Of a stretch of 36,672 nucleotides of DNA, positions 35,510 to 36,672 are shown one piece after another. The DNA comes from a virus, in the IMG/VR virus record IMGVR_UViG_3300005663_000023, positions 1 to 36,672 of that record; one strand, 5' to 3'. Made by a program: the position numbers and the translations under genes. Under the pieces are notes generated by a model. The model was not told the DNA's origin. It ran no database searches and saw only the letters and a list, made by a program, of their open reading frames with translations. Each line of letters starts with the position of its first letter. The first letter of the stretch is position 1.

Positions 35510-35991
35510 TTCCACGTGGCTCGATTTACGACCGCGTAAATGCACCCATTCGAGACGTCGTTGGCGTCGGCTAGCTTCGATACCGATATCCCGGAGGCAC
35601 GTAGGAGCCTTATGCGCAAGACCTGAACAGCCGTCAGCTTGGACTTGACGTGTCGCTCACCGTTCGGCATGTTGGCGCGGCCTTTCGTCAACTTGTCCTG
35701 CATGTTGTCCAAGGGTGTGCCGGGCCTTAGGTGGCGGGGGTTGACACACGGTGGATTATCGCAGCTGTGGAGAATGAACGCCCTAGCTGGTATCGGGCCG
35801 ACAGAGATCATGTAGCTGATCCGGTGCGCCCCAACATTTTTGTAGACGCCATGTGAGAGCGTTACGCTGAATTGGCCATACCCATGCGTAAGAGCAGCAG
35901 TCCAGGTCCAGCACCCGTCTGACTTGTTGACCTTTCGCCAAAACCGCTCCAGGTCTTTGGGCGTGAACGTGATAAGCTGCTCTCGTGGCAT
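35500..35991 (-). CDS. HNH homing-type endonuclease 2
   Basis: This 163-aa paralogue of the 1400-1918 protein shares FWRKVNKSDGCWTWTAALTH, the core LHSCDNPPCVNPRHL (His75, Cys77, Cys82, Asn84, His87) and the C-terminal helix-turn-helix (TAVQVLRIRLLRASGISVSK, then LADANDVSNGCIYAVVN). Start ATG 35991 has AGGAGACCCCG and is preceded by leader copy B. Its TGA overlaps the initiator ATG. The gene plus leader is flanked by duplicated initiator-start sequence, suggesting insertion at that junction. Confidence 0.9.
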   Translation of the reverse strand: MPREQLITFTPKDLERFWRKVNKSDGCWTWTAALTHGYGQFSVTLSHGVYKNVGAHRISYMISVGPIPARAFILHSCDNPPCVNPRHLRPGTPLDNMQDKLTKGRANMPNGERHVKSKLTAVQVLRIRLLRASGISVSKLADANDVSNGCIYAVVNRATWKHI

Positions 35992-36115
35992 CGGGGTCTC
36001 CTATGACCTTAGATTGCTGGGCCGGTCGAGTCGCTGCTACGACTCCCGGCCCTCTGTCGTTTATACCACGTCGCGGCGCGGCGAACATGGGTACCCATGC
36101 GCGGCTCACAGGTGC
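35510..36115 (-). mobile_element. HNH cassette 2 flanked by duplicated initiator start
   Basis: Between the 37-bp repeats lie leader copy B and the HNH gene (569 bp; 606 with one repeat copy), close to the 596 bp of cassette 1. The upstream repeat begins with GTGAGCC overlapping the stop of the 36106-36315 gene, so the ancestral order was probably that gene coupled directly to the initiator. The insertion recreated an ATGA overlap at the HNH/initiator border. Mobility is inferred. Confidence 0.5.
35989..36075 (-). promoter_or_regulatory. Promoter-hairpin leader, copy B
   Basis: On the minus strand: CGCGACGTGG, -10-like TATAAA (plus 36060-36065), CGACAGA, then GGGCCGG and GAGTCG pairing with CGACTC and CCGGCCC, GA bulge and loop TAGCAG (hairpin plus 36019-36052), then AGCAATCTAAGGTC and the ribosome site AGGAGACCCCG before the HNH ATG. 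The predicted transcript starts at the hairpin base. Confidence 0.75.
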
Positions 36116-36315
36116 ACCACTTCGGGCTCGTCATTCGGGTAGACAGCGTCATGGGCCTCTCGCGAGTCGAAGACCACCATGAGGCCGACCACGCCGTCCG
36201 GAAACAACAACCGATGGCTGCCTCCGCCGACCGTGAATTCCGCCGTAAGAGTCACCACTCGAGCAATGTAGAGCGTCGTCAAGCCGTCGGGCATGTTATC
36301 GTCTGCGCGTGGCAT
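36106..36315 (-). CDS. Small hypothetical protein (69 aa) with hairpin leader
   Basis: ATG 36315 is preceded by GGGAGACCCTG from leader copy C. The protein is mainly beta (LTTLYIARVVTLTAEFTVGG, then LLFPDGVVGLMVVFDSREAH) and acidic at the C terminus, with no membrane helix. No family is recognised. Its first eight bases (ATGCCACG) equal those of HNH gene 2, showing that the repeat extends into the coding start. Its stop overlaps the fragmentary initiator start. Confidence 0.7.
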   Translation of the reverse strand: MPRADDNMPDGLTTLYIARVVTLTAEFTVGGGSHRLLFPDGVVGLMVVFDSREAHDAVYPNDEPEVVHL

Positions 36316-36395
36316 CAGGGTCTCCCATGACCTTAGATTGCTGGGCCGGTCGAGTCGTTTCCGCGACTCCCGGCCCTCTGTCGTTCAGTGTAGCA
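36313..36395 (-). promoter_or_regulatory. Promoter-hairpin leader, copy C
   Basis: The same hairpin (plus 36343-36376; loop CGGAAA on the minus strand) and ribosome region as copies A and B, but the promoter differs: TGC plus TACACT (plus 36387-36395), an extended -10 formed by the end of the upstream gene. This shows the hairpin and ribosome site are conserved even when the promoter element changes. Confidence 0.7.
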
Positions 36396-36582
36396 TAGTC
36401 ACGGTGAGGCGGTTGAGCCGTTGGTCTGCCTGCCACTCGTCGAAAGTGGGGGGCTCGGTCAAGTGCTTGCCGTTCTCTTCGTCGCATAGGCCATCCCCGT
36501 AGCCTTCGCTCCAGCCCTCCAGGTAAAACATGTACGCCTCTCTCGGAGAGTAGAGTAGTTCCGTGGTATCGTTGTCTTGCAT
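36385..36582 (-). CDS. Small acidic hypothetical protein (65 aa) with hairpin leader
   Basis: ATG 36582 follows AGGAGACCCCG of leader copy A. The product MQDNDTTELLYSPREAYMFY, then LEGWSEGYGDGLCDEENGKH, is acidic and aromatic-rich with no membrane helix or metal motif. No family is recognised; the small, acidic composition is typical of phage inhibitors and DNA mimics but this is not evidence of such a role. Its last codons form the extended -10 of leader copy C. Confidence 0.7.
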   Translation of the reverse strand: MQDNDTTELLYSPREAYMFYLEGWSEGYGDGLCDEENGKHLTEPPTFDEWQADQRLNRLTVTMLH

Positions 36583-36672
36583 CGGGGTCTCCTACGACCT
36601 TAGATTGCTGGGCCGGTCGAGTCGCTGTCACGACTCCCGGCCCTCTGCCGTTTATACCACGTCGCGTCGAAC
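36580..36672 (-). promoter_or_regulatory. Promoter-hairpin leader, copy A (also at 1-77)
   Basis: On the minus strand: CGCGACGTGG, TATAAA (plus 36651-36656), CGGCAGA, then a hairpin (plus 36610-36643) with the same stems and GA bulge as copies B and C and loop TGACAG, then AGCAATCTAAGGTC and AGGAGACCCCG before ATG 36582. It ends the contig and is continued at position 1, so the leader spans the circular joint. Confidence 0.75.

Follow-up and report, generated by a model that had tools for sequence, protein, structure and literature searches.

Leaders of phage genes on many viral contigs carry, at a fixed place at the predicted transcript start, a hairpin with a 2-nt bulge on its 3′ side (hairpin I), which shows strong covariation and a near-invariant core around the bulge. 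Four copies lie in the window (the whole stretch of 36,672 nucleotides that was analyzed). With further leaders on at least 60 other viral contigs, each ahead of a single gene, the family comprises 70 distinct leaders, four in the window and one at each of 66 further loci (67 sequences in all), chance-like cases excluded. We consider the chances roughly balanced that the element is a phage cis-acting mRNA leader which, via a factor on the bulged core, would set 5′-end stability and translation of early genes. Few models for structured 5′ leaders of phages are available so far.

Four bulged hairpins in one viral genome

Both strands of the window were scanned for a layout of outer stem, inner stem, loop, and 2-nt 3′ bulge. 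The scan and the predicted folds agreed on the four hairpins that an earlier note had reported, at the same coordinates and on the same strands, each with a 7-bp outer stem, the 2-nt 3′ bulge, and an inner stem of 5–7 bp. With minima of seven outer and five inner pairs (Watson-Crick) plus the 2-nt 3′ bulge, 60 dinucleotide-shuffled versions of the window contained a mean of 0.08 hairpins (at most 2 in any one), compared with four in the real sequence. Copy A (36019–36052, minus strand; GGGCCGG GAGTCGT agca GCGACTC GA CCGGCCC) scores 41.0 bits with model R2 and is seen in the MFE fold (z −4.5). It follows the −10 box TATAAA (36060–36065, minus strand; extended form TGGTATAA at 36061–36068) and precedes a candidate second hairpin (hairpin II; 35995–36008, minus strand; GGTC atagga GACC) with the Shine-Dalgarno sequence in its loop and, 3 nt on, the ATG of an HNH endonuclease gene (35500–35991, minus strand; PF13392). 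Copies B and C, also on the minus strand, were both detected by model R2 and the predicted fold. Copy B (36343–36376; GGGCCGG GAGTCG cggaaa CGACTC GA CCGGCCC) is preceded by TACACT (36387–36392) and followed by a predicted hairpin II (36319–36332; GGTC atggga GACC) and a 69-aa ORF without Pfam match (36106–36315). Copy C (36610–36643; GGGCCGG GAGTCGT gaca GCGACTC GA CCGGCCC) is preceded by TATAAA (36651–36656) and followed by a predicted hairpin II (36586–36599; GGTC gtagga GACC) and a 65-aa ORF, again without Pfam match (36385–36582). On the plus strand, copy D (1343–1374; GGGCGGG GAGCA ctggaa TGCTC GA CCCGCCC; 47.3 bits with model R2, and present in the predicted fold) lies between the −10 box TACAAT (1333–1338) and a predicted hairpin II (1384–1396; GGCT cagga GGCC), again with the Shine-Dalgarno sequence in the loop and the ATG 3 nt on. 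The gene it leads (1400–1918, plus strand; HNH_3 and HTH_3) is 46% identical to the HNH gene under copy A. Since these two genes are paralogues, they and their leaders may have diverged together.

The −10-like boxes lie 7, 10, 7, and 4 nt ahead of the stems of copies A, B, C, and D, that is, within the 4–10 bases given previously. All four hairpins contain GAG and a GA bulge, and the claim that GAG/CTC and GA are constant is correct within the window, whereas the bulge of the family as a whole is RA (GA or AA, rarely UA). Loops of six bases, as described earlier, are obtained when a 6-bp inner stem is counted, but two copies can alternatively be drawn with 7 bp and a 4-nt loop. Copies A–C are near-identical over ∼65 bases, with identical stems and changes mostly in the loop and at a few other positions; they are recent duplicates and one unit for covariation. 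Covariation within the window is therefore a single comparison, that of the duplicates with copy D. It does reveal compensatory differences, so that the covariation claimed for four copies holds for the copy D leader, while the minus-strand stems contribute none. The last 77 bases of the record are identical to its first 77 (1–77 = 36596–36672), so that the bases of copy C appear again at 15–48; the record is probably that of a circularly permuted or circular genome. Apart from this, a 49-base repeat (98% identical) is found in the right part of the window (28852–28900 and 32043–32091), and degenerate GGCGATTCGCTGG repeats occupy 35139–35287, within the minus-strand ORF 34301–35545.

The promoters of the window look like the extended −10 type. 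The motif TGGTATAM occurs eight times (57–64, 525–532, 28110–28117, 30354–30361, 30702–30709, 33546–33553, 36061–36068, and 36652–36659), with 0.19 matches expected, and a simple sigma-70 scan of 35400–36672 returned no consensus promoter. Three minus-strand TGGTATAM sites without a hairpin have GGTATACCTA...TCAGGAGG in common.

Relatives, covariation, and promoter phase

A first pattern, built from the window copies and scanned over IMG/VR, gave 29 loci, most of them preceded, at a distance of a few bases, by a −10-like box and followed by a Shine-Dalgarno sequence and start codon. To these were added the results of relaxed patterns and of scans anchored on DUF1376 and HTH_36 replication proteins, in which no hairpin sequence was fixed. 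The covariance model and search proposed in the earlier note have thus yielded dozens of further copies, with compensatory changes. Four loci (L015, L118, L146, and L269) were excluded from the final count as likely chance matches, and L025 failed the layout; the number of contigs is slightly below 67, since a few loci can share one contig (e.g., L197 and L286), and IMG/VR contigs are partly redundant. The relaxed and protein-anchored scans revealed the outer stems GGGCTGG/CCAGCCC, GGGCGCG/CGCGCCC, GGGCAGG/CCTGCCC, and AGGCGGG/CCCGCCT. Further outer stems were GGGACGGG/CCCGTCCC and GGTGCGGG/CCCGCACC, and the inner stem GAACG/CGTTC was also found. The protein-anchored finds (AGGCGGG, GGGACGGG, GGTGCGGG, GGGCAGG, and inner GAACG/CGTTC) had an RA bulge every time.

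In an alignment of 46 hairpins (A5), 99.8% of the pair cells are standard pairs, and 8 of the 12 pairs are doubly changed. The covariation score was 0.316, compared with 0.064 ± 0.011 after shuffling (0 of 500) and at most 0.061 when the partners were slid. The 24 first-pattern sequences alone gave a comparable picture at the positions left free by the pattern, and the inner stems, where free, were nearly always paired. Because related sequences can beat shuffles without any structure, it is on the slid partners and on the protein-anchored members that the argument depends. RNAalifold, applied to a MAFFT alignment (A7), recovered hairpin I but not hairpin II. The core GGGA...UC-RA-CC is near-invariant: almost fixed are the G-C pair adjoining the bulge, the first G-C and A-U pairs of the inner stem, and the R-A of the bulge. 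Among the 70 leaders, the bulge is GA in 34, AA in 34, and UA in 2. The inner stem opens with G-C followed by A-U in 70 of the 70 kept leaders, where the final extraction demanded GA...TC with the bulge bases free, and scan B was free at both the bulge and the A-U pair. Since parts of the stem were prescribed in the pattern scans, the main evidence for the constancy of these positions comes from the protein-anchored set and from the positions left free.

In 42 non-redundant leaders, a −35 element (CTTG, often CTTGAC-like) at −34 to −29 and an A-rich −10 at −11 to −6, separated by 17 nt, keep a fixed phase to hairpin I, positions being counted from its first paired base. By usual promoter spacing, the RNA is predicted to start at or next to this base, as had been supposed for the four window copies.

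Outside viral sequences, the first pattern yielded seven matches and no convincing copy in all GTDB species (257 Gb); these look like chance, as a promoter-like context is absent and the free inner positions are mostly unpaired. No copy passed strict filters in 385 alphaproteobacterial genomes, and plasmids gave a single weak partial match. Cultured phages contained no copy according to blastn with two short member queries, nor did six phage records whose replication genes match relatives according to model R2, both weak negatives. A terminase-based search did not find a close relative of the phage in the window. A hairpin of Sulfitobacter phage pCB2047-C (L259), one of the 55 rows of alignment A4 and absent from A5, fits the layout, but model R2 was silent and the hairpin is antisense to the neighboring annotated genes; it was rejected. 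A different conserved hairpin, GGGCGGG GTGTG..CGCAC GC CCCGCCC, was observed before a possible start codon in several viral records of ∼50 kb (L093, L117, L127, L152, and L154).

The second hairpin and the genes that follow

Most leaders contain, ∼4–20 nt after hairpin I, a hairpin II of 3–7 bp, usually with the Shine-Dalgarno sequence in its loop and an ATG 2–7 nt beyond, a feature absent from the earlier note. Its stem sequences include GGTC/GACC (window, minus strand), GGCU/GGCC (window, plus strand), GCGAA/UUCGC, GGCAA/UUGCC, GCGAU/AUCGC, CCGAU/AUCGG, and CGCCU/AGGCG. Because choosing the best helix of each leader is circular, arms were swapped between 36 non-redundant leaders, with one representative for the near-identical minus-strand window leaders. 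In this set-level test, own arms scored 11.28, compared with a mean of 8.53 and a best of 10.14 for swapped arms (0 of 1,000); the helix score was also reached in 0 of 200 dinucleotide shuffles. Hairpin II is nevertheless the weaker of the two, since RNAalifold misses it and it does not appear in the MFE fold of copy A. A pure ribosome-site role is disfavored, because one clade (e.g., L066, L072, and L240) keeps hairpin II with the start codon ∼110–150 nt away, and because the hairpin II loop of L008 lacks a Shine-Dalgarno sequence.

Within the distant-start clade (L066, L071, L072, L188, L190, L240, L254, and L009), hairpin II is nested in GCCG/CGGC or GCC/GGC, and an extra CGCAT-N6-7-ATGCG hairpin is present, with the gene start >100 nt off. 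In nearly all near-start leaders (L002–L299 and the window), TA (often TAYC or TAYCAC; in the window TATCACG and ATACCACG) is found 9–19 nt past the ATG; it is less frequent in later intervals, and the clustering is partly AT-richness. At seven loci (L013, L014, L019, L023, L089, L095, and L104), the hairpins are separated from the main replication gene by short leader ORFs of 15–19 aa (MSKIYHDPFAPCKVPR, MPKIYHNRLLPRKVAP, and others), that of L013 with its stop overlapping the main ATG.

The genes led encode proteins of the replication region (DUF1376, HTH_36, VapE-type, and Toprim), HNH or HNH-AP2 proteins, and small ORFs. Distant relatives of the downstream proteins are found in named phages of Roseobacter, Paracoccus, Sinorhizobium, Sulfitobacter, enterobacteria, Vibrio, and others; as such relatives occur in phages of Alphaproteobacteria, hosts from this class are likely for part of the family.

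Possible roles and known systems

RNA stability, control of the ribosome site, and protein binding are all possible roles of the element, and the preferred reading combines them. The RNA would begin with the first paired base of hairpin I, as the promoter phase predicts, and the paired 5′ end would shield the message from 5′-end-dependent decay; base-paired 5′ ends are known to stabilize mRNA (PMC3997798). A conserved factor, be it the host ribosome, RNA polymerase or an RNase, or a shared phage protein, would hold the bulged core. The folded ribosome site would govern the timing or strength of first-gene translation; for the phage HNH gene mobE, PMC3014915 cites an RNA hairpin that conceals the ribosome site. 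The net role would be control of translation and 5′-end stability of early genes (replication starters, HNH endonucleases, and small ORFs). Outside the window there is generally one copy per locus, so that an operon-level role fits as well.

The main rival is a put-like action on RNA polymerase, in which both hairpins, as a nascent-RNA antiterminator, would bind the elongating enzyme where an early operon begins and thereby suppress its pausing or termination further downstream. The usual presence of two hairpins directly after the predicted start, generally once per locus and often ahead of a replication gene, is consistent with this idea; an invariant bulged core across unrelated phages would suit a conserved host target, and the distant-start clade keeps hairpin II without a nearby start codon. 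However, the window copies are separate, each ahead of a single small gene, the Shine-Dalgarno sequence usually lies inside hairpin II, and a terminator-like site was not found in 35400–36672; we regard this reading as rather unlikely. Doubtful, too, is a generic 5′-terminal stabilizing stem of the papA/ompA type that has no specific partner: the hairpin of the phased leaders does begin at the predicted +1, and 5′-terminal pairing protects mRNA, but mere stability needs neither the fixed RA bulge (rarely UA) nor the G-C/A-U start of the inner stem in all 70 leaders. That the inverted repeat is instead a DNA operator of a dimeric regulator is very improbable, even though the ESAS repeats of cluster K have been read as probable DNA sites (PMC3203893) and correlated arms could track changes in repressor specificity. 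With the insertion of 2 nt on the 3′ side only, hairpin I is not a symmetrical DNA dyad; the spacing of the arms varies (loops of 3–8 nt), two arm sequences coexist within the window, and the element is oriented with the downstream gene in the leaders inspected, in fixed phase downstream of the −10. An artefact of duplicated, related copies and of a consensus imposed by the search patterns can practically be dismissed, for although the minus-strand copies are duplicates and the pattern scans fixed stem parts, the protein-anchored finds had no fixed stem, free inner stems nearly always pair, and the same pattern gave no more than seven chance-like matches in 257 Gb of cellular genomes.

Returning to a leader that acts through its bulged core, we propose, more tentatively, that the 5′ hairpin represents a new class of phage cis-RNA, recognized by conserved host machinery, either RNA polymerase or the ribosome, and favoring early or replication messages in many uncultured phages. 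The sharp conservation of the core makes the search for a binding partner directly testable, and the covariance model may serve as a marker for early operons of uncultured phages.

No Rfam 15 family matched at or above its gathering cut-off, and relaxed thresholds gave sub-threshold, unrelated matches. The 5′-terminal stabilizing stem-loops of papA and ompA have a paired 5′ end, which the promoter phase predicts for the present leaders; to our knowledge, they have not been described with a common conserved bulge core. In the hairpins sequestering the ribosome-binding sites of phage homing endonuclease genes (mobE and I-TevI), a folded ribosome site likewise stands ahead of an HNH or homing gene, whereas the present leader also precedes replication genes. 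We know of no invariant 5′-terminal bulged hairpin in mobE or I-TevI leaders.

The nearest known systems are SAS/ESAS and HK022 put. In SAS/ESAS of cluster K mycobacteriophages and cluster EF Microbacterium phages, a repeated upstream inverted repeat likewise stands before non-structural phage genes, and the GGG-AUAGGAG-CCC motif could also loop out the Shine-Dalgarno sequence. SAS, a 13-mer, hardly varies in sequence; the promoter is part of ESAS, whose arms reportedly do not support pairing at the RNA level (PMC3203893, PMC11373665). In contrast, the promoter and its −10 lie upstream of hairpin I, which is 99.8% paired and covaries, and is thus distinct from the 17-bp imperfect inverted repeats of ESAS with the promoter inside and little support for RNA pairing. 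In phage Pixie, the ESAS-type folds are irregular and vary between sites. Hairpin II (GGTC-N6-GACC, GCGAA-N7-TTCGC, and others) differs from the 13-bp SAS sequence before the start codon, which is close to GGGATAGGAGCCC. By description, HK022 put is the nearest mechanistic analogue; its antitermination operates via the zinc-binding domain of the RNA polymerase β′ subunit, and no link of put to a Shine-Dalgarno sequence is known to us. The put RNA has two stem-loops and a bulge, lies at an early promoter, and acts on RNA polymerase without phage proteins (PMC9378689). Two stem-loops near the transcript start are likewise found here, according to predicted folds and the inferred start site, whereas put is ∼70 nt long and lambdoid, with irregular stems, a triplex, and a bulged stem I.
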